Shown here piece by piece: positions 11,222 to 26,344 of a DNA stretch of 46,482 nt. Origin of the DNA: a virus; IMG/VR virus record IMGVR_UViG_3300020171_000049, positions 1 through 46,482 of that record. One strand, given 5' to 3'. Below the pieces are notes generated by a model that did not search any database, had not been told where the DNA came from, and was given only the letters and a program-made list of their open reading frames with translations. The translations under genes and the position numbers were made by a program. The stretch's first letter is position 1, and each line of letters begins with the position of its first letter.

Positions 11222-11260
11222 AGCTTATCAGGTACTTTTGAGACTGTCAAGGGGTTTACT
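11222..11260 (-). promoter_or_regulatory. Sigma70-like promoter with adjacent operator half-site
   Basis: On the minus strand TTGACA (11250-11245) is followed after 17 bases by TAAGCT (11227-11222). Immediately upstream of the -35, plus-strand GGGTTTACT (11252-11260) is identical to the right half of the palindromic operator at 24979-24994. The promoter lies at the very end of the GIY-YIG gene and serves the gene at 10976-11182. Confidence 0.5.
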
Positions 11261-12047
11261 AACTATTTTTTGCAAGATCCAAAACTATATCCTGCAGCTT
11301 CTTTTTCTCGGCCAGGGCCTTGTAGATCCTTTTGGTGGGGCGAGACGGAGTAAAAATAGCATCGTACGCACTCCAAGTCTTCTTCCCGAGCCTGGCACTT
11401 ATTGTTCCGTACGGTACCCCGCTTAAATCAGACCACTCACGTATGTATTTTTCGTCGGCCCCAATTCGTATTTTTCTAGCGTTGGGAGGCATGACGCCCT
11501 TGCGCTTGGCCGACCATTTTTGTTTTGTTTCGTCTGAGTGTTCCTTGCCGTAGAATGGGTTTAAATCGCCTGTCTGAGCTTTTCCCATTGCACCTACTCG
11601 ATCTTTAGCTGCCTTGGACATATTTACGCGAGCTTTTCCGGTGAGGGCCTTCCGTATCTTTTTTACGGTTTCAGGGTCTCGCGGTTTGCCATAAGATGGG
11701 TGGTCCTCTCCTTTGCGCCCGTACATAGCATTTTGTTTGCCTAGAAGCCTGCACCCGTCCCCGCCGCTAGTTCCGTTCGTTAGGTCGGCTCCTATGTATC
11801 TGAAGTATGCAATCCACCATTTTTCATGGGCCTCCCATTCTGACTTGAGGACTTTGTCAAAAATGACCAGTTCTGGTTTCAACCCCGCCGAAACAAGGGT
11901 CTTTAGCCAACTGTTTTTGTGGGTGCTGGATAGCAGTTGTTTTGGCTGCATGTGCCTGTTAAATCGTATTTGTACATTATCCGCTTTGCCAACATACCGG
12001 CACTCGCCAGTCAAAGGGTCGATTAGCCCATAAATAAAAGTGAGCAT
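11259..12047 (-). CDS. GIY-YIG homing endonuclease with NUMOD3-like repeats and a captured tail
   Basis: The 262-aa reading starts at the ATG of MLTFIYGLIDP, preceded by AAAGGTGG in the end of the helicase gene. Residues about 3-95 form the GIY-YIG domain (FIYGLI...CRYVGKADN...R). Residues about 115-195 contain NUMOD3-type motifs (HPSYGKPRDPETVKKI; NPFYGKEHSDETKQK). The last ~25 residues (KRIYKALAEKKKLQDIVLDLAKNS) duplicate the C-terminus of the upstream SNF2 helicase (RKIYSALKEKTKMQDLVLDLMKGG). The body is AT-rich but the tail is GC-rich, like native phage genes. It is probably a mobile gene that inserted at the helicase 3' end. Confidence 0.88.
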   Translation of the reverse strand: MLTFIYGLIDPLTGECRYVGKADNVQIRFNRHMQPKQLLSSTHKNSWLKTLVSAGLKPELVIFDKVLKSEWEAHEKWWIAYFRYIGADLTNGTSGGDGCRLLGKQNAMYGRKGEDHPSYGKPRDPETVKKIRKALTGKARVNMSKAAKDRVGAMGKAQTGDLNPFYGKEHSDETKQKWSAKRKGVMPPNARKIRIGADEKYIREWSDLSGVPYGTISARLGKKTWSAYDAIFTPSRPTKRIYKALAEKKKLQDIVLDLAKNS

Positions 12048-12048
12048 G

Positions 12049-13602
12049 TCAGCCACCTTTCATCAAGTCTAGTACGAGATCCTGCATTTTAGTTTTTTCT
12101 TTAAGGGCTGAATATATCTTCCTTTCTTCGGGGGTCGAGTACAAGTGAATTATGTTTGTTGGGTATTTTTGCCCTGGGCGCACAATCCTAGCGTTTGCCT
12201 GGTTGTATACATCGTTGCTTGTTGTTGGGGCGTACCACACGATTGTTGAAGCCTCTGTCAGCGTTAGTCCGTGACTCATTGTTCCGGCATTGGCTACAAT
12301 TATGTGGGGTTCTTTAGTTCTTTGGAAATCGGCAAAAATTCTATTTCGTTTTTGCACTGGCGTACTTCCGTCGATAACTTCAACCGCCCATGTTGATTTT
12401 AGTTCTTGCGCTACGGCGTTTAATGCACCTGTAAGGGGTACAAAAACTATTACTTTCTGGTCGCACTCTTCGATTAGCTCTTTCAGTAGGTTTATTCTGG
12501 GGGAGAAGTCTATTTTTAAAGTCTCCCCCGAGCCGTCGTACAAACATCCAAGTGCGGCTTGAATAATCTTTCCTATCAGGACGGCTGCGTTTACGGCTGT
12601 CACCTGGTTGCCTTGGACTTCTGTGACTGCTTGGTGCAGAAGGTCTCTATAGTGTTTTTGTTGTTCTTTGGATAGCGCAACATACCTGTCGCTGTAGATT
12701 GTTGGAGGGAGATCCACGCAATCTCTAAGGGCAAACCGAATTGAGGGTTTCAGTATTCGGTTGACAGTGTCCTCCGCTCCCTTTCTTGGAGCCCACTTAA
12801 ATTGTGTTATCTGGATCATGGTTTCGTTCTTAAACGATGTGAAGTGCCCTTTATAGTTTTCTGGGCAGATAAGCTTGCTTTGCCCAAAAGCATCTGTGGG
12901 GTCGTTGGGGGTTGGTGCGCCTGTGAGCCCCCACGCTGACCGTGTGAACCCGCATTTATTCAGGACAGAGTTCATTACCTTCCAGCGATCCGTCCGGCTG
13001 TTCCTATACATTGCTTGTTCGTCTATGATGAAATGGTCTATGTCCGGGCGCTGCATTAAATCTTCTTGAAGTATTTTCACCCCGTCGTGATTTATTATGT
13101 AGATGTCGTGCAATTTGGCTAAAAGGTCTCGTCTTTTTTCTCTAGTTCCGTGGAGTATGGCAAAAGTCTTCAGTGGGAAGTTTGCAAAAATTTCATCAGC
13201 CCATGTTGGGTCTAGGGTTGAAAGCGGGGCCACGATCAAGATCCTTCTTATTTTTTTGGTTGTTTGTAGATAGTCCGCCGCCCACAGAGAGCTTATTGTT
13301 TTGCCGCTGCCCATCCCGTTAAGGCAGAAAGCTCTTTGGTTTAGAGTGAGAAACTCCGCTGTGTCCTTCTGGTGGGTCTTTGGTTTGTACTTGCCCGGCC
13401 ACTCGTACTGGTCGCGGATCGGGCTCGGAGTCTTGAACCCGAGGTTATTTAAGATCCTTGCCGAGTCCAGCGACAGAGGGACTGCGCACCAGGTCTGCCC
13501 GCCGACCACCGCCTCCTTGACCTTGGGGAAGACCGCCCGGAGCTGTCCTGGGTTGCGGGTCGGGACGACATAGTGGTTGTTGAGGATTTTGGTGGTTGTC
13601 AT
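12049..13602 (-). CDS. SNF2-type superfamily 2 helicase
   Basis: The 517-aa reading starts at MTTTKILNNH; the ATG overlaps the stop of the upstream membrane peptide (ATGA) and the open frame beyond it only re-reads other genes. Walker A is GMGSGKT (96-102), the DEAH-like box is IIDEQAMYR, and motif VI is YNQANARIVRPGQ. Proteins of this type translocate on duplex DNA and are common in phage replication or recombination modules. From about 13380 downwards (residue ~75 on) the DNA becomes clearly AT-richer than the first 75 codons, consistent with replacement of most of the gene together with the GIY-YIG insertion. Confidence 0.88.
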   Translation of the reverse strand: MTTTKILNNHYVVPTRNPGQLRAVFPKVKEAVVGGQTWCAVPLSLDSARILNNLGFKTPSPIRDQYEWPGKYKPKTHQKDTAEFLTLNQRAFCLNGMGSGKTISSLWAADYLQTTKKIRRILIVAPLSTLDPTWADEIFANFPLKTFAILHGTREKRRDLLAKLHDIYIINHDGVKILQEDLMQRPDIDHFIIDEQAMYRNSRTDRWKVMNSVLNKCGFTRSAWGLTGAPTPNDPTDAFGQSKLICPENYKGHFTSFKNETMIQITQFKWAPRKGAEDTVNRILKPSIRFALRDCVDLPPTIYSDRYVALSKEQQKHYRDLLHQAVTEVQGNQVTAVNAAVLIGKIIQAALGCLYDGSGETLKIDFSPRINLLKELIEECDQKVIVFVPLTGALNAVAQELKSTWAVEVIDGSTPVQKRNRIFADFQRTKEPHIIVANAGTMSHGLTLTEASTIVWYAPTTSNDVYNQANARIVRPGQKYPTNIIHLYSTPEERKIYSALKEKTKMQDLVLDLMKGG

Positions 13603-14115: not shown

Positions 14116-14420
14116 AATTCCTCCAGTTCTCGTCTCACGGCGTTGATACTTTCCTGGTCATCGACTTTGAAAAACAGTCCTCCGGCCTTGGTCACGCAGT
14201 TGCCGAACCGAACCTGCAGCCCGCTCAGGCCCTGATTCTTCTCGCCCCGTCGCCCTGGCTTCTTGGCTTCGATCGCGACGAAATGTCCTTTATAACAGGC
14301 TAGGCGGTCGCTGACCCCGCCGATGGAGAAGGCACCGGCAGAGGCCGGGAAGTGGAACGCGTCGATCTGGTCGAGCATCTCCTTGAGGGCTGACTTGACA
14401 TCGTTCTCGGTCCGCATCAT
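14112..14420 (-). CDS. VRR-NUC endonuclease
   Basis: In this 102-aa protein the core GGVSDRLACYKGHFVAIEAKKPG...LSGLQ gives the PD-(D/E)XK active site: Asp in SDR, then Glu and Lys in EAK, followed by the conserved Gln. Stand-alone VRR-NUC domains of about 100 aa are common in phages and are proposed to act as Holliday-junction or flap nucleases in recombination and DNA maturation. It lies between the RecB-like nuclease and DUF551, with overlaps on both sides. Confidence 0.85.
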   Translation of the reverse strand: MMRTENDVKSALKEMLDQIDAFHFPASAGAFSIGGVSDRLACYKGHFVAIEAKKPGRRGEKNQGLSGLQVRFGNCVTKAGGLFFKVDDQESINAVRRELEEL

Positions 14421-15379
14421 CGCCTCCCATTATGCGCGCAGCTCAAAACTTCACAGTACTTGCCGCAGAGCGGGTTCTTGCGGGCCGGGAAGTTGTCCGC
14501 CTTCCAGGCGTCCTCCATGCGCTTGACTCGCGGCAGAACGTTCTCCCAGACCTTGTTGACTCCGGCCCGGTCGAGGTCCGGGCAGCCGCTGGTCTGCTGG
14601 TGCTGGGTCCAGATAAGTTTTCCTTTGAACTCCTCCAGTTCCTTGCGGATCAGGCCGAGGGAAGCAAGGCACAGGTGCAACTGCTCGTAGTCCTCTTTGA
14701 TCTTGGCCCCGGTTTTGTAGTCGAACACCGAGGCTTTGGTCCCCTGGATGATCGGAACGTCGATCTTGCAGCGAAACCAGGCAGTCTTGGCAAACCAGGC
14801 TTTGCTCCCGGTGATCGGCACCATGTTCTGATCGAGAACGATCTCCATCTCGGGGAGGACTTCCGCGCCTTTTTCCTTCATGCTCAGGAACAGCCGAGCG
14901 TACTTCTCGACCGGCTTGAAGCCCTCCGGGTCTTGAACCTCTCCGGTGCCGACGAAGATCTCGGCGGCCTTGTGCACCCGGTTGCCCCAGGCCATTGCCT
15001 CGGACTCAACCGTCTGGGTGGTGCAGTAGAAGCGGTTGTGGGCGTACTTCAGCGGGCATCCGAGTGCGCCGTCGAAGTCGTTCAGGGCGGAGAAGGACCA
15101 GGAAAAGGTCTTGCCTTTGGCGTTGACCGGGCGGGAATCTTTCATCGGCTTGATGTTCTCCGGGGCGCTCGTGCCCTTGGGGTTGTCGGCAGGGTCCAGC
15201 TTGCCGGCATAGATTGCATTGTCCACGTCTGCCGACCAGATATAGTAGGCATACTTCTCGTCAAACTTGCGATCCCTGGTGCACAGCGGGTAGCCCTGGA
15301 CCGAGAGGATATTCTCCCCTCGTGATGCCATCGCACAGACCTCAGCGAACGGCAGGGTGTAGATCGGTGGGTGGTTCAT
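14417..15379 (-). CDS. RecB/AddB-like PD-(D/E)XK nuclease with probable Fe-S cluster
   Basis: The 320-aa reading starts at MNHPPIY, with AAGGAGG 8 bases upstream. Motifs are GNRVHKAAE near residue 130, an Asp in CKIDVPI, then VFDYKTG, then QLHLCLASLG. A Cys in GALGCPLKYAH together with a C-terminal CGKYCEVLSC triplet matches the four-cysteine iron-sulphur arrangement of AddB and Cas4-type nucleases. It is probably a recombination exonuclease working near the polymerase and SNF2 helicase. The same frame stays open upstream for about 380 codons across the methyltransferase gene; see the separate finding. Confidence 0.85.
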   Translation of the reverse strand: MNHPPIYTLPFAEVCAMASRGENILSVQGYPLCTRDRKFDEKYAYYIWSADVDNAIYAGKLDPADNPKGTSAPENIKPMKDSRPVNAKGKTFSWSFSALNDFDGALGCPLKYAHNRFYCTTQTVESEAMAWGNRVHKAAEIFVGTGEVQDPEGFKPVEKYARLFLSMKEKGAEVLPEMEIVLDQNMVPITGSKAWFAKTAWFRCKIDVPIIQGTKASVFDYKTGAKIKEDYEQLHLCLASLGLIRKELEEFKGKLIWTQHQQTSGCPDLDRAGVNKVWENVLPRVKRMEDAWKADNFPARKNPLCGKYCEVLSCAHNGRR

Positions 15380-15467
15380 CGGCAGTGCCTCCTTGAGAAC
15401 TTGAGCGGGCAGCGGGATGGTACTCCCGTTTCGCATGTTAGGGCCGGCATGTTGTGGGTCGGATTCT

Positions 15468-16529
15468 TTAGGCGTCGACCAGCCTCGCATAGAGGGTTCT
15501 CCAGGCTCGTTCGGCTGTGGCTGGGACCACTCCGTTGCCGAGGAGTCTGAGTTCGTCAACACGATTGTCACTGGAGCAGTACAGCTCGGCATCGTCCAAC
15601 CAACCGGCAGGCCCATCAGAGTCTCGACCCATCGGGGGTTGAGTTTTCCCCCTACTTGATTCGCCACCGTCTTCGTCCCACCTGTCTGTCGCCCCTCTTC
15701 CCTCAACCGGACCATTCGTTTGTCTGCTGTCTCCTTCGACTCTGAGATAGCTGATGCTCTGGGCGTCATCCAATCCTCTTGTGACTCTCGGCGGCTCCCA
15801 TTCGTGCTGGTCTTCGCCTGGTCGGGAGGGCCATGCAAATGCACCGCTGTTCCCAGCGGTGGCGAGTTGCGCTCCGCTTGGCTGCCCATCTCCGAGTTCT
15901 TTGACTCGTTGACCGAGATTGTAGGCCAGTTCTTGACTTCCTCTCCTAGAATTTTCCCCCCCGTACCCGGTTTTCTGCTCCCTGGATTCCCAGCTCTCAT
16001 CGTGGGCCAAGATAAACACTCGCTTCCGCTGGTGAGGTGCGCCGACTTCAGCCGCGCTGAATACTCCCCACGTTGTTCTGTAACCGTCTTCTTCCAGATC
16101 GCTGAGGACTGTGGAGAGTCCAAGCGAGATATGTCCCTCGACGTTCTCGAAGAAGCAGAAGGTTGGCCGCATGGCTCGGACGGTTTCTCGGATGAATGGC
16201 CAGAGGTGGCGAGGGTCGTCGGTCCCTGCCCGTTTTCCTGCGGCACTGAAGGGCTGGCAGGGGTATCCGGCCACAAGGAGGTCCACTTTGCCGTGAAACT
16301 CTTTTGCAGGGAAGGTTTTAAGATCCGTCCAGACAGGTGCTGCGTCCAGGAGTCCCGCTTCCATTTTAGCAACCAGGTTCGCTGTTGCGAAGGCTTCGAT
16401 CTCACAAAGAGCGAGGAGGCGCAGATCTCGGATTGCTCGGTCAAGTCCGAGATGTATGCCCGCATATCCTGCACAAAATTCAACGGCTGTGAAGGGTCTG
16501 GGCTGGTCAAGTTCTTCGGGATTATCCAC
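15468..16529 (-). CDS. C5-cytosine DNA methyltransferase
   Basis: This 353-aa protein has motif I FCAGYAGIHLGLD (18-30), motif IV GYPCQPFSAAGKR with catalytic Cys91, motif VI FENVEG (127-132), motif VIII QRKRVFILA (167-175) and motif X LLGNGVVP near residue 331. The target-recognition part lies between VIII and X. It transfers methyl groups to cytosine in a specific DNA sequence, probably protecting phage DNA from host restriction; no cognate endonuclease is nearby. The start is a GTG with AAGGAGG 7 bases upstream. A second GTG two bases earlier opens the alternative frame that covers this gene. Confidence 0.93.
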   Translation of the reverse strand: MDNPEELDQPRPFTAVEFCAGYAGIHLGLDRAIRDLRLLALCEIEAFATANLVAKMEAGLLDAAPVWTDLKTFPAKEFHGKVDLLVAGYPCQPFSAAGKRAGTDDPRHLWPFIRETVRAMRPTFCFFENVEGHISLGLSTVLSDLEEDGYRTTWGVFSAAEVGAPHQRKRVFILAHDESWESREQKTGYGGENSRRGSQELAYNLGQRVKELGDGQPSGAQLATAGNSGAFAWPSRPGEDQHEWEPPRVTRGLDDAQSISYLRVEGDSRQTNGPVEGRGATDRWDEDGGESSRGKTQPPMGRDSDGPAGWLDDAELYCSSDNRVDELRLLGNGVVPATAERAWRTLYARLVDA

Positions 16530-16543
16530 ACTCTGTTTCCTCC

Positions 16544-18619
16544 TTATTTCACGTATCTCTTGTCGGTCCCGCCCTCGGACGCCAGGGGCAGCGACGGAGC
16601 CCAGGCAGGGGCTTGAGCCATGAGTTTCTGCATCAGGGCAAAGTCAGCTTCGGAGCGCGACTCATCGGAGCAGGCGACTACTTCGTCGTGGACCTGAAGG
16701 GCGAGCTTGAGTCCTGCGCGGGTGATCTTGTTCATGGCGTCGGTAATAACGATCCGGGCCAAACTCTGAGTCAAATTCTCGCAAATCAAACCGCCGTACA
16801 GCTTGCTGCGCTCGATCCTGCGCCCTTTGCGCTTGGTCAGGGACCACTCACCCCCGTCGTGCTGCTTGAGTCCGTTGTACTGCATCGTCAGGCCGTTGGG
16901 CATAACGATACCGCCAGGGACAACCTTCAGCGACGGCTCGATGCCGACCGTATAGTTCCAGTCCTCATCTGCTGCCAGAGCGGGGATGATGCCGTGGCAG
17001 GCTCTCCACAACCGCACAATGGCTTGGTTGGTGCTGCGGTAGCGGTCGATGATCTCTTTGGCGCAGGCGCAGTGGATCAGGTGCTCATCTTCGGTCAGGT
17101 TCGACGGTTTCGAGTCCAGGGCTTTAGCATAGTGCCGGCTGGTGAAACTGTCAAGGGATATACACAATGCGTTTGCGACTTCTTGATCGAAGAGCACTCC
17201 CTCGTTGCCGAGCATGCCGATGCGCACCATCTGGGAAAACTTCGACCAGCCGAGCCCGTATCCTGCCCCGAGTACGACGGCCTTGCCCAAGAACCGCTTC
17301 TCCTTGTCTCGCTTTGTGACCGGCGCCCCGAAGATCTGGGCGGCCATCTCGCAGTAGACATCCTTGCCCTGAGCAAACTGCTCGACCAGCCGGGTTTCTC
17401 CGGCCAGCACCGCCAGCACTCGCGCCTCGATCTGGGACAAGTCGCTGATGACCAGGTCCTTGCCGGGAGGGGCCATGATCGCGGTGCGCAGCCGGGAGCC
17501 GCGGGTGAAGTTCTGCGGGTTGACTTTGTCCCCGCCGCCGTAGCGGAAGGTCGTTGCGGCACAGTAGGTCAGGTAGACCGGCCAGGCGCCGCGCCCGGAG
17601 ATGCCGAGCATCCGCCCTGCCCTGGTTTCGTTGATGGTGCTCTTGACCCCCATGCGAGCCTCGACAACCGCCTGCACTGCCGGGTCGAAGTGGTCGAGCA
17701 GCAGCTTAAACTCCTCGTCAGACTTGCCCATTGCGTAGGTCCACGGGTAGAGGTCTTTCTCCTGCTTGAAGGCAATCTTTTGCTCCGGCGTGTGCAGCCG
17801 GTTGGCCCGGAACGAAGGCAAGATGCCGGCGGGGGGATCTCCGACCAGGTCAGGGTTGACGCGCCCGTCCTTGACTTTGGAGGGGCTGAGTTTCTTCGGC
17901 GGGTCGATGCCGAGGGACATCAGCAGCTCTGCGAACTTATCGTTGCTCATCAGGGTGTCTTTGTCGTGGGCGATCTTCTCCAGCAGTTCGGCCTTGCGCA
18001 GCTTCTCCGCCTCGATCTCTTCGACCAGCAGGGGAGCGTCCAACAGCAGTTCAGGTTCGGTAAACATGCGGATGGTGGTGTCGATCAGCCGCAGCTCGGA
18101 GGCAGGCACCAGGGGGAGCATTTTGGCGAAGGCACCGGCCAGGATATCAACGTCGTTGATGCAGTAGGCTCCCAGACTTCTCTGCTGCGCCTCGGTCAGT
18201 TCCCAGAGGTCCTTGACGCTTTCGAGTTCAAAACCTTTCGCCGGTAGCCCGAGATGCTTCGCCATATTGCCGAGGCTTGCCGACTCGTGCGGGTAGAGGG
18301 CTCTGGCCATGCTCAGGGTGCAGCCCCAGAACTTAGGCCGAATGCCGGCTCTCCAAGCCAGGATCGCTCCGTCGAAGTGGGTATGGTGGCAGACAACCCA
18401 TGAGTCGTGCCAAGGGTGGGTCTTGATGAAATTGAGAATATCGGCCCGCTTATGCAGGTAGACCGTCGGACCCGCGCCGATCTTCACCCCCAGACCGTGG
18501 ATCTTGAACAGAGGGTGGCGGATATACTCCTCGGTTGTCAGCTTCGAAAGAGTGATACTCTCCCCGGTGGCCGGGTGCTTGCCGTAAGCTGTTTCGAAGT
18601 CCAGCAGGGTCAAAATCAT
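16544..18619 (-). CDS. DNA polymerase, family A
   Basis: In this 691-aa protein the N-terminal 3'-5' exonuclease has DFET (7-10), HTHFD (79-83) and YCINDVD (152-158). The polymerase domain has motif A LVISDLSQIEAR (389-400), motif B KRFLGKAVVLGAGYG (441-455) and motif C VHDEV (643-647). No 5'-3' exonuclease domain is present, as in T7-type replicative enzymes. It should replicate the phage genome with the primase-helicase encoded further along the same operon. AGGAG lies about 11 bases before the ATG. The cassette array ends just upstream of this gene. Confidence 0.95.
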   Translation of the reverse strand: MILTLLDFETAYGKHPATGESITLSKLTTEEYIRHPLFKIHGLGVKIGAGPTVYLHKRADILNFIKTHPWHDSWVVCHHTHFDGAILAWRAGIRPKFWGCTLSMARALYPHESASLGNMAKHLGLPAKGFELESVKDLWELTEAQQRSLGAYCINDVDILAGAFAKMLPLVPASELRLIDTTIRMFTEPELLLDAPLLVEEIEAEKLRKAELLEKIAHDKDTLMSNDKFAELLMSLGIDPPKKLSPSKVKDGRVNPDLVGDPPAGILPSFRANRLHTPEQKIAFKQEKDLYPWTYAMGKSDEEFKLLLDHFDPAVQAVVEARMGVKSTINETRAGRMLGISGRGAWPVYLTYCAATTFRYGGGDKVNPQNFTRGSRLRTAIMAPPGKDLVISDLSQIEARVLAVLAGETRLVEQFAQGKDVYCEMAAQIFGAPVTKRDKEKRFLGKAVVLGAGYGLGWSKFSQMVRIGMLGNEGVLFDQEVANALCISLDSFTSRHYAKALDSKPSNLTEDEHLIHCACAKEIIDRYRSTNQAIVRLWRACHGIIPALAADEDWNYTVGIEPSLKVVPGGIVMPNGLTMQYNGLKQHDGGEWSLTKRKGRRIERSKLYGGLICENLTQSLARIVITDAMNKITRAGLKLALQVHDEVVACSDESRSEADFALMQKLMAQAPAWAPSLPLASEGGTDKRYVK

Positions 18620-18642
18620 TGGTTTTTAGTCTCCTGGGATAG

Positions 18643-18686
18643 ATGGAATTAGCAGATATGCCAATTCCATATAATACCTGTTATAT
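18643..18686 (-). repeat. Terminal, incomplete attC (attC0)
   Basis: Downstream of cassette A the R'' core ATATAAC (18686-18680, minus strand, containing the TAA stop) is followed by the inverted pair ATGGAATT/AATTCCAT (18663-18670 and 18643-18650). The expected closing GTTRRRY core is missing; the sequence runs into the polymerase leader. This looks like the last attC of the array with its R' lost at the junction with phage DNA. Confidence 0.55.
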
Positions 18687-18965
18687 TGCTTGTGCGTTTA
18701 TACAGGCATTATGGGCCTGATCTAAACAAATAGCATCAACACACTCGCCGTCTTCATTGTAGATAGCGTTTTCGTTGGCGGTACTACACCGCGCTAGCGA
18801 TATAACTGCTTCCGCGCAAGCATGGCGTGTATCTCGATCTTGGTATTTAAGCAACAGAACAATTTGCTGCTTTATTTTGTCGGCGTCTCTTGCGTCAAGC
18901 CGAACACCTTTGGTTATTGATAATGTCTTGATAAATTCTTCCGCCTTCTGTTCTGCTGTTTTCAT
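18681..18965 (-). CDS. Cassette A: small hypothetical protein
   Basis: The 94-aa reading starts at MKTAEQKAEEF, because GAAGGAGAT lies just before this ATG; a longer frame without a ribosome-binding site runs 12 codons into attC1. The protein is helical with repeated Ala and Cys (DRDTRHACAEAVISLARC), a pattern often seen in uncharacterised phage and bacterial small proteins. Its stop lies inside the R'' core of attC0 and its leader begins with the matching R' core. The function is unknown. Confidence 0.65.
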   Translation of the reverse strand: MKTAEQKAEEFIKTLSITKGVRLDARDADKIKQQIVLLLKYQDRDTRHACAEAVISLARCSTANENAIYNEDGECVDAICLDQAHNACINAQAI

Positions 18966-18992
18966 CCATATCTCCTTCGCGTGGGGGGGGCA

Positions 18993-19093
18993 ATATAACA
19001 ATTAGCCAAGCGGAAAGTTCACCTCATCAGCGCCCCGTATGGCTCTCAGCGTCTCGACCGCTAGCCTGCTTCCGCATGGCATGGCCGTTAGGG
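18993..19093 (-). repeat. attC-like site 1
   Basis: On the coding strand this has R'' CCCTAAC, then GGCCATG, L'' ATGCGGAAG, a 55-bp centre, L' CTTTCCGCTTG and R' GTTATAT. The GCGGAA/TTCCGC pair provides the inner stem. It separates cassette B (upstream) from cassette A. Confidence 0.8.
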
Positions 19094-19095
19094 CG

Positions 19096-19311
19096 CTAAA
19101 CTCGCACTATGCTAGGGTGAGACTCCAAAATAAGACAGGGCACTTGTACCGGCTCATTGCCATGCACATCAAGTGGAAGTAGTTCGTATGTCCCCTCTTG
19201 TTTCGTGCCCCCCAAGTGTTCACCAATAACCTTCCAACAGCGGAACCCTCCGCAGGTAGGATAATGATGCATCCGAATAACGTCACCAATCGCAAATCGT
19301 TGAATTTCCAT
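19096..19311 (-). CDS. Cassette B: small hypothetical protein
   Basis: This 71-aa protein starts FAIGDVIRMHHYPTCGGFRCWKV after a short lead, a pattern reminiscent of small beta-barrel proteins that begin 'F.vGD.V.l' (such as YodC-like proteins), but I cannot assign it firmly. GGGAGG lies 6 bases before the ATG. Its stop abuts the R'' core of attC1 (CCCTAAC), and its leading core GTTAGGG is the exact complement, so gene plus site form one complete cassette. Confidence 0.6.
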   Translation of the reverse strand: MEIQRFAIGDVIRMHHYPTCGGFRCWKVIGEHLGGTKQEGTYELLPLDVHGNEPVQVPCLILESHPSIVRV

Positions 19312-19327
19312 CCTTCTACCTCCCGCA

Positions 19328-19431
19328 CCCTAACCACTAAATGAGCCGGAAGGGTCAAGTGTGGGTGGTGCGCTGAAAAGTGTTTTAGTTCTCGGTCAGT
19401 CTACGCCTCCGGCTATCATGGGCCGTTATAA
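19328..19431 (-). repeat. attC-like site 2
   Basis: On the coding strand this has R'' TTATAAC, then GGCCCATG, L'' TAGCCGGAGG, L' CCTTCCGGCTC and R' GTTAGGG. AGCCGGA/TCCGGCT forms a 7-bp inner stem. It separates cassettes C and B. Confidence 0.8.
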
Positions 19432-19433
19432 CG

Positions 19434-19637
19434 CTACCCAAAGAAGGCGAAGACAAGCCGCTCAAAGAAATTCATTCCTTGCGGTTTCTGTGGCTTCCTG
19501 GCTCTCCTGCCTTCGCGATAACCTTCCATGTAATACTTCATCTTGGGGTGTGCATACCACCGCACATCCAGGCCGAGAAGCCCATCATCAATCCCCATCT
19601 GGTATGCAGAAAACTTCTTCTGGCTTGTCTTGCTCAT
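19434..19637 (-). CDS. Cassette C: small basic hypothetical protein
   Basis: The 67-aa reading starts at MSKTSQKKF, with GGAGGCTC upstream just after the R' core; the open frame continues further upstream only through the attC site. It is basic, with YMEGYREGRRARKPQKP followed by a hydrophobic end (FFERLVFAFFG). No family was recognised. Its leading core GTTATAACGC and trailing core GCGTTATAAC are perfectly complementary over 10 bases. Confidence 0.6.
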   Translation of the reverse strand: MSKTSQKKFSAYQMGIDDGLLGLDVRWYAHPKMKYYMEGYREGRRARKPQKPQGMNFFERLVFAFFG

Positions 19638-19654
19638 ATCTTTGAGCCTCCGCG

Positions 19655-19756
19655 TTATAACAATCGGGTTAGCGGAAGGGCGACTCAGCCCAGGTCCGCG
19701 AGAAATGTGTGCAGTTTGCAGTGGTATCGGCCTCCGCAAACCCTTGGCCGTTAGCC
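19655..19756 (-). repeat. attC-like site 3
   Basis: On the coding strand this has R'' GGCTAAC (stop codon TAA inside), then GGCCAAG, L'' GTTTGCGGAGG, L' CCTTCCGCTAAC and R' GTTATAA. The last ~55 bp, including L' and R', are nearly identical to the same part of attC site 6, showing that the two sites share recent ancestry. Confidence 0.85.
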
Positions 19757-19939
19757 TGCAAAAATTAAGTCGGCTTCGGTGCGATCATTTACCGACAATT
19801 CTGTGTAGTGCGACCAACCGGAGTACGTGTTGAACCAGTCGCACATTCTTGTTTTTCCGTAGCAGCGCATACATGATTTCGGGTCAACTCCGTTACAATT
19901 CGGGCACCCGCGCTTTTTTGATCGTTTCAGTATTTCCAT
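19751..19939 (-). CDS. Cassette D: small zinc-finger-like protein
   Basis: The 62-aa reading starts at MEILKRSKKRG. It contains CPNCNG...CMRCYG followed by a further Cys, a DnaJ-type zinc-ribbon-like pattern, and a short aromatic segment (WFNTYSGWSHY). The ribosome-binding site is weak (GGGGG 6 bases upstream). The TAA stop is part of the R'' core of attC3; the leading core GTTAGCC complements it exactly. Confidence 0.6.
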   Translation of the reverse strand: MEILKRSKKRGCPNCNGVDPKSCMRCYGKTRMCDWFNTYSGWSHYTELSVNDRTEADLIFAG

Positions 19940-19954
19940 AAAACCCCCAAAACC

Positions 19955-20059
19955 GGCTAACAATAAGTTGCAGTGGACTGGTTGACTCGTCTGCTTGTTC
20001 TTACGGGTCGGTGCTGTTTGGTTCTTCCCAGCACAGCCACTGACCCCAGGTCGTTAGCC
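19955..20059 (-). repeat. attC-like site 4
   Basis: On the coding strand this has R'' CGGCTAAC (stop codon inside), L'' GTCAGTGGC, L' GTCCACTGC and R' GTTAGCCG. Outer cores are complementary over 8 bases and the inner stem is CAGTGG/CCACTG. It separates cassettes E and D. Confidence 0.8.
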
Positions 20060-20293
20060 GCCGCATTCCTTGAGCCTACGTTGCCATACCTCCACCTGTT
20101 CCAATAACACCTCCGGCAGGTTGCCTCGTTCAATGTTCACGAAAAGGGTCGCTATAATTTCACCGGCCAGCCGCCTGCCTTCTTCCGCTTTTGAAACTTC
20201 GGCGGCTAACCCAGCGCTCAACTCGGAATTGCTCCGCAATTCGCGAATGTTCGCGGCCTGCATCGCATCCCAGTGGTAATCCAAAAATGGCAT
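20054..20293 (-). CDS. Cassette E: small helical hypothetical protein
   Basis: This 79-aa protein is acidic and helical, with a likely coiled-coil (about residues 15-70, SELSAGLAAEVSKAEEGRRL...VWQRRLKE). GGAGGTGA lies 5 bases before the ATG. No family was recognised. The stop TAA is inside the R'' core of attC4. On its upstream side only a degenerate attC remnant remains, so the leading core cannot be checked. Confidence 0.65.
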   Translation of the reverse strand: MPFLDYHWDAMQAANIRELRSNSELSAGLAAEVSKAEEGRRLAGEIIATLFVNIERGNLPEVLLEQVEVWQRRLKECGG

Positions 20294-20302
20294 CTCTTAT
20301 CA

Positions 20303-20335
20303 CCTCCGCAATCCGGTTAGCTTAATCCGTTATAC
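20303..20335 (-). repeat. Degenerate attC-like site 5
   Basis: On the coding strand R'' GTATAAC (with the stop of cassette F) is followed by GGATTAAGCTAACCGGATTG, which resembles the L'-to-R' end of sites 3 and 6 (CGCTAACCTGATTG). The centre and the final R' core are missing. It is best explained as an attC that suffered an internal deletion. Confidence 0.55.
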
Positions 20336-20566
20336 GTCTTCTGCGGCGTTGAACGCTTCAAGCCATTCCTCACAGCGACCGCCTCTTTCAAGGGATTCCC
20401 AAAACGCGACATCTCCGTTCGCGTGAAGGCCAGCCACGCCGGAACTTTCATTGATAAGAGATCTGACTGCCGCTATCCCTTTTTTGATTATTGCGTTTTC
20501 TGCTTGTAATTTCTTGACTTCATCAAAAAGAGAAATATTTATTTCACCTTGCGTCATTGTTCCCAT
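20330..20566 (-). CDS. Cassette F: conserved small phage protein
   Basis: In this 78-aa protein the first half is a coiled-coil (LFDEVKKLQAENAIIKKGIAAVRSLI). The second half has the pattern LI-x-ES-x-GVAGLHxNGDVAxWexLxxGGRxExWLxxF, which I recognise as common among uncharacterised phage and prophage proteins. Finding it with an attC on each side indicates that a phage gene travels as a cassette. GGAG lies 9 bases before the ATG. The function is unknown. Confidence 0.7.
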   Translation of the reverse strand: MGTMTQGEINISLFDEVKKLQAENAIIKKGIAAVRSLINESSGVAGLHANGDVAFWESLERGGRCEEWLEAFNAAEDV

Positions 20567-20582
20567 TTTATAAATCTCCGCG

Positions 20583-20664
20583 TTATAACAATCAGGTTAG
20601 CGGAAGGGCGACTCAGCCCAGGTCCGCGAGCTTTATCTGGTTCCGCTTGTCATGGCTGTTAAGC
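20583..20664 (-). repeat. attC-like site 6 (first of the array)
   Basis: On the coding strand this has R'' GCTTAAC (containing the stop of the gene at 20659), L'' CAAGCGGAAC, L' CTTCCGCTAAC and R' GTTATAA. The inner stem is AGCGGAA/TTCCGCT. The upstream gene has no complementary leading core, so this site may mark where the array joined resident phage DNA. Confidence 0.8.
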
Positions 20665-20877
20665 CCCTCGCATCAGTTGATTATTATGCTTGTGAAATGT
20701 GTCAAACATCGGGTGTACGTCGTTCGCTCTGGCTTTGCACTCCCGGCAGTATTTGACCGGCATCCGCATCAGGCGGTCGTCAACCTCGGTCTGCACAGGA
20801 GTCCTGCAGAGCTTGCATGGGATCATGACGCGAATCAGTTTCCAGCCTGGGTCGTAGTCAGCTTCGATCTCTTGCAT
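20659..20877 (-). CDS. Small zinc-ribbon-like protein at the array boundary
   Basis: This 72-aa protein has CKLCRTPV and YCRECKARA, giving a four-cysteine zinc site, followed by a His/Asn-rich C-terminus. AAGGAGG precedes the ATG. Its TAA stop lies in the R'' core of attC site 6, but no matching core is found upstream, so it may be a resident phage gene whose end was joined to the array rather than a complete cassette. Confidence 0.65.
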   Translation of the reverse strand: MQEIEADYDPGWKLIRVMIPCKLCRTPVQTEVDDRLMRMPVKYCRECKARANDVHPMFDTFHKHNNQLMRGA

Positions 20878-26266: not shown

Positions 26267-26344
26267 TTTTAACGTTTAAAACTGTTCAAGTTCTTGTAAT
26301 TGTTAGGGAATTGCGTTTTGGGTTGTTCATTTTAAACGTTAAAA
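26267..26344. repeat. TTTTAACGTTTAAAA inverted pair
   Basis: TTTTAACGTTTAAAA at 26267-26281 recurs as its exact complement at 26330-26344. A partial copy AAACGTTAAAA lies at 26553-26563, and related ACGTTT motifs occur near 26610-26630. They flank the AT-rich stretch upstream of the regulator promoter and are candidate regulator or initiator binding sites. Confidence 0.7.

Follow-up and report, generated by a model that had tools for sequence, protein, structure and literature searches.

Six gene cassettes in the replication operon of a podophage-like virus

The DNA analysed here, called the window, is the whole of IMG/VR record IMGVR_UViG_3300020171_000049, a virus record of 46,482 nt (46.5 kb). 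Annotation with PHROG and Pfam identified a plus-strand block with portal, terminase, head, head-closure and DNA-ejection genes and a minus-strand replication block with primase, helicase, nuclease and family A DNA polymerase; the window is a podophage-like virus. No close relatives of this virus were found among the phage records searched, and Rfam gave no match in the window. The replication operon also carries a homing-endonuclease-like gene immediately after the helicase gene (11259-12056), and 14417-16531 encodes a protein of 704 aa that combines a methyltransferase-like part with a PD-(D/E)XK nuclease at its C-terminus. Between the leftward and rightward gene blocks sits a 78-bp AT-rich near-perfect inverted repeat (26267-26344, TTTTAACGTTTAAAA ... 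TTTTAAACGTTAAAA), which mimicked attC in a naive scan.

Six small minus-strand genes, each with a clear ribosome-binding site (RBS), lie between the DNA polymerase gene (16544-18619) and an early gene (20659-20877), and they alternate with attC-like elements, as the preliminary description of this DNA had claimed. The G|TT boundaries divide the region into six cassettes of 276-407 bp (18681-19087, 19088-19425, 19426-19750, 19751-20053, 20054-20329 and 20330-20658), and its GC content is 0.50 compared with 0.56-0.60 in the flanks. The features are as follows:

16544-18619, minus strand: family A DNA polymerase, left flank of the array and downstream gene of the operon
18674-18686, plus strand: left junction ACCTG|TTATAT, placed by the cores and the GC step at the array edge
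18681-20658, plus strand (attC polarity): 1978-bp cassette array, cassettes F, E, D, C, B and A in this order from the left, delimited by G|TT boundaries, core complementarity and GC
18681-18965, minus strand: gene of cassette F (94 aa), whose stop TAA falls within the leading core; ORF with RBS, no family match
18993-19093, plus strand: attC of cassette F (cores, polarity classifier)
19096-19311, minus strand: cassette E gene, 71 aa, with an 86% identical relative in contig L271
19328-19431, plus strand: attC of cassette E; its L'' arm has an extrahelical A (cores, polarity classifier)
19434-19637, minus strand: cassette D gene, 67 aa; ORF with RBS
19655-19756, plus strand: attC of cassette D; its L'' arm has an extrahelical A (cores, polarity classifier; expected hairpin in the predicted fold)
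19751-19939, minus strand: cassette C gene, 62 aa, zinc-finger-like, with relatives in L135/L272 (79%) and L156 (65%)
19955-20059, plus strand: attC of cassette C (cores, polarity classifier, predicted fold)
20054-20293, minus strand: gene of cassette B (79 aa), whose stop TAA falls within the leading core; ORF with RBS, cores
20294-20335, plus strand: eroded attC site of cassette B, which retains R' GTTATAC but no hairpin or R'' (sequence)
20330-20566, minus strand: gene of cassette A (78 aa), weakly related to HK97 Gp37 and to a Microcystis phage protein
20583-20664, plus strand: attC of cassette A, R' GTTAAGC apparently phage-derived (cores, polarity classifier)
20659-20877, minus strand: phage early gene (72 aa), right flank; stop TAA abuts the predicted insertion point

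The spacers have the anatomy of attC sites, with R boxes containing AAC/GTT and pairing L'' and L' arms, and in several the L'' arm has an additional base (GTGG-A-CTG versus CAG-CCAC). An inner pair and a length of 80-105 bp had been attributed to every element; this holds for the five intact sites (82-105 bp) but not for the sixth, at 20294-20335, which has lost its hairpin and R''. The leading core of a cassette must equal its own R'' core, because both derive from one circle. Indeed, in each of the five testable cassettes the leading core was the reverse complement of the R'' of the same cassette (over 10, 7, 10, 7 and 6 nt), in agreement with the earlier claim. Only 2 of 120 permutations matched equally well, one of them owing to a core common to cassettes A and D. 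In cassettes F, C, B and A, four of the six, the leading core contains the stop codon TAA. At both edges phage sequence reaches G|TT, enclosing six cassettes and six attC sites. The first element (20583-20664) is part of cassette A; the neighbouring phage gene at 20659-20877 is not a cassette.

An integron integrase was not detected by a TIGR02249 search of the whole record, which may be a fragment; the previously noted absence was thus upheld. With neither intI nor attI, the window does not form a complete integron. All sites, five intact and one eroded, are in one orientation (plus) at cassette-like spacing. Judged from its sequence, the region 18681-20658 is a CALIN, an array of six cassettes with no integrase, in a phage replication operon, located between the DNA polymerase and an early gene as originally described, and its recombination is a prediction.

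Polarity of the attC sites

As references we used attC sites of bacterial arrays adjoining intI (loci L008-L087), which in array direction run from AACAA... to ...CGTTRRRY with extra bases in the L'' arm. By three polarity marks (AACAA after R'', CGTT at R' and the extra base in the L'' arm) the window sites face plus. A classifier built from 41 of the bacterial attC sites assigned 41 of 41 correctly in leave-one-locus-out tests, and called plus for all five intact sites of the window. Since the attC sites face plus and the genes lie on minus, all six genes are antisense to their attC sites, in contrast to a typical bacterial array, where genes are sense. The R'' and R' boxes had been swapped in the preliminary description.

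As a substitute for the IntegronFinder and HattCI models, we built covariance model R1 from 32 IntI-adjacent attC sites. It matched attC sites of class 1 and Vibrio integrons and of the phages TJE1, PH101 and MW202573, and gave no score for the window sites, in which the 3' spacer is 10-12 nt long versus 8 nt in the reference type. A second model, R2, built from the window sites, recovered a true attC beside a bacterial intI in array direction (L066, 33 bits, E 3e-5), with further matches in L078 (30 bits) and several in L021. In the covariance search, a check proposed earlier, R1 thus missed the window sites, while R2, used the other way round, reached true attC sites. At full length, R2 missed most of the sites it had been built from, probably because long loops and unmatched R boxes are penalised. 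A first position matrix for attC had been dropped for its drift to false sites. Folding, another proposed check, predicted the expected hairpin (cassette D attC), but the z-scores of the window sites were modest.

Antisense cassettes in phage integrons

Integrons are regarded as bacterial devices, in which cassette genes follow the attC polarity and the Pc promoter. We compared 80 IntI-bearing bacterial loci with IntI-bearing IMG/VR contigs (the best 80 of 260), using our own rules for site finding and gene direction, the latter based on ORF length and Shine-Dalgarno signals, and applying them alike to both sets. The bacterial loci had 50 sense and 7 antisense cassettes with Shine-Dalgarno support, whereas the best 80 of the 260 viral contigs had 11 sense and 79 antisense (Fisher 8e-21). 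Counting each non-redundant locus once, bacteria gave 25 sense and 2 antisense, and the viral contigs (again the best 80 of 260) 4 and 32 (p 4e-11). Viral cassettes from these best 80 of 260 that were bounded by covariance-model attC only were 6 sense and 36 antisense, and 62 of 63 covariance-model matches in the same best 80 of 260 lay on the expected strand. Most of the viral sense cassettes fall in three contigs that look host-type (L123, L136 and L154).

The antisense viral ORFs are real genes. Domains were found in ORFs for an N6/N4 methylase (L098), a C5 methylase (L095) and PAPS reductases (L137, L151, L152 and L109); PAPS-reductase-like genes recur as phage-integron cassettes in these four contigs, with DNA methylases in others.

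The IMG/VR intI contigs tested are phages. They encode TerL, capsid/protease and primase (L135), TerL, portal, protease and capsid (L156), TerL, portal and capsid (L145), TerL and portal (L093), TerL (L097), portal (L138), tail proteins (L119, L139 and L167) or primase (L104 and L137). The intI gene is directly upstream of terL, ending within 3 bp, in L097, L135, L145 and L156, and a terminase-sized ORF (626-664 aa) lies at most 20 bp from intI in six further contigs (L100, L117, L118, L121, L130 and L132). All nine phage IntI proteins tested passed the cut-off of TIGR02249, a family common to bacterial integrons and the related phage integrons. In a quick tree of 142 rows, most phage IntI fell into two clades, one of 28 rows, all viral (SH-aLRT 100), and one of 28 rows with one planctomycete (95). 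Both clades are mostly antisense, so this arrangement arose or persisted in separate lineages. A deposited phage record, Virus Rctr41k, also has an integron-type integrase, annotated as xerD (L004, 4680-5678), whose surroundings gave no attC match.

We searched for relatives of the window cassettes with the six cassette proteins. Cassette E has an 86% identical relative in L271, a 57-kb phage contig. There too it is a cassette; its attC lies on the opposite strand and its cores match. Cassette C has a 79% relative directly beside intI in L272 (the same contig as L135, IMGVR_UViG_3300037705_000202) and a 65% relative beside intI in L156 (IMGVR_UViG_3300045918_000492), the latter with the core GTTATGCC at each end; in both contigs this is the first cassette by intI, and the cassettes there are antisense. 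Cassette C is thereby shared with intI-bearing phage arrays, as expected of the proposed phage pool of antisense cassettes. These two contigs carry intI directly upstream of terL, whereas the window has no intI and its array lies in the replication operon. Apart from the cassette gene, the window has nothing in common with L272, and only two distant proteins (about 30% identity) with L271; homology to the cassette C and E relatives ends within the cassette. Plasmid relatives of the window cassettes were not found. By its similarity to phage early proteins, HK97 Gp37 among them, cassette A is of the phage early-gene type. The array DNA had no match in phage records, and searches for exact attC patterns in IMG/VR and GTDB gave nothing or chance matches only. 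Variation in array content among related phages, which had been suggested as a further check, was not seen: the closest DNA polymerase in IMG/VR has 39% identity, none of the polymerase relatives found has attC sites, and a relative with an empty or altered array was not found.

Like bacterial chromosomal and class 1 integrons, the array has attC anatomy, the G|TT cut and cassette cores; unlike them, it has no intI or attI, and its genes, instead of being mostly sense and read from Pc, are antisense and aligned with the phage operon. Phage arrays of this kind are not new: 17 phage CALINs were described by Qi et al. 2023 (PMC9892861), who reported recombination with attI1, and activity with IntI1, for attC sites from virulent phages. 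The window array resembles these (TJE1, PH101, P12002L and MW202573; PMC9892861) in having attC sites and cassettes without an integrase inside a phage genome. Some of the published arrays recombine with attI1 by the published assay (PMC9892861); the window array is known from sequence. It also differs from the published phage CALINs in its six cassettes, all antisense to attC. Our scan of the published arrays showed that PH101 (mostly) and MW202573 are antisense as well; the MW202573 CALIN (L172, 1850-4130) has attC on minus and its annotated genes on plus. The TJE1 cassette is sense, one PH101 cassette has ORFs in both directions, and P12002L, with one weak match only, was not used. The antisense layout is not mentioned in the accessible part of Qi et al. 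2023 (PMC9892861). A literature search that left preprints and most subscription journals outside found no publication on antisense cassettes as a phage rule or on intI beside terL. Phage CALINs and their IntI1 activity were already known, and the window array is a further member of the group; against what is accessible of that literature, the antisense phage integron is the new form.

Two cassettes of PH101 (L268, 31977-32065 and 33385-33470) share their opening leader, and their ends have similar leaders on the opposite strand, so these two may carry expression signals of their own.

Origin of the array

We consider it likely that an integron integrase working in trans, most probably that of another phage, inserted the cassettes, and that the array is part of a phage-resident integron system. 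Insertion would have proceeded one cassette at a time, with entry at an attG-like core, G|TTAAGC (ACCTG|TTAAGC), overlapping the stop codon of the small early gene, where GTTAA would be the complement of the neighbouring gene's stop codon together with the following C. Since the cut falls just after TAA, no phage gene would be broken. The left and right junctions together predict an empty attG-like site, ACCTG|TTAAGCCCC. Cassettes are known to insert at attG sites, which are non-classical (Loot et al. 2024, Nat Microbiol 9:228, as cited in PMC11389934 and PMC12901181). The entry predicted here, at a single G|TT core away from any integron, is like the attG insertion outlined there, whereas the target, the end of a phage gene at its stop codon, is unlike it and is a prediction for the window. 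A general rule of stop-codon entry for phage arrays was considered and rejected, as PH101 does not fit; because the rule failed there, stop-codon entry is proposed for the window only.

With attC sites facing plus and genes on minus, the genes would be read by the leftward operon of the phage and not by an integron promoter. Cassettes with antisense genes may have been kept because this operon transcribes them, and the cargo may have fitness value. Phages with intI, some with intI directly upstream of terL, likewise keep cassettes whose genes are antisense to attC and run along the operon.

Alternatively, an ordinary CALIN or single cassettes could have been taken from a bacterial host integron at infection, the backward genes being a matter of coincidence or of selection on a host pool. 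Temperate phages with host-derived integrons are documented (PMC9892861), about 12-16% of bacterial cassettes are antisense, and three IMG/VR contigs (L123, L136 and L154) look host-type. However, six of six antisense cassettes have p of about 3e-6 at the bacterial rate, the relatives of C and E are in phage contigs with none found in plasmids, and cassette A is of phage early-gene type; we regard this origin as improbable. The preliminary description had envisaged phages exchanging small genes as cassettes while infecting integron-bearing hosts. Exchange fits the C and E relatives in other phages, but as the array is antisense and these relatives were found in phages and not in plasmids, capture from integron-bearing hosts appears less likely, on these sequence comparisons, than exchange within a phage-borne pool.

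It is very unlikely that the polarity marks of the window sites are reversed, so that the genes are truly sense and the integrase reads the other strand. The longer 3' spacer and the silence of R1 would fit a reversal, but the marks agree in five of five sites, R2 matches bacterial sites in array direction, and phage intI arrays with classic attC sites share the layout. Moreover, plus polarity gives each cassette one attC, whereas minus polarity would leave the first attC without a cassette and the last cassette without an attC. That these are ordinary small phage genes whose hairpin spacers resemble attC by chance is hardly credible, for although the fold z-scores are modest and the generic R1 is silent, it runs against the core identity within cassettes, the cut points, the extrahelical bases and the shared cassettes beside intI in other phages.

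Beyond the window, the trans-insertion reading extends to a broader one that we consider likely: phages have an integron system of their own, with at least two IntI lineages in phage operons and antisense cassettes moving between unrelated phages, including those without integrase. This suggests that viruses run their own version of the cassette gene-swapping system. If true, the dominance of the antisense layout in phage integrons across two IntI clades would mean that integrons were rebuilt for phage operons, and unrelated phages would have a site-specific path for exchanging small early genes and DNA methylases. Gene strand relative to attC polarity would then be a simple signature that separates phage from bacterial cassette pools and can be checked in existing data.
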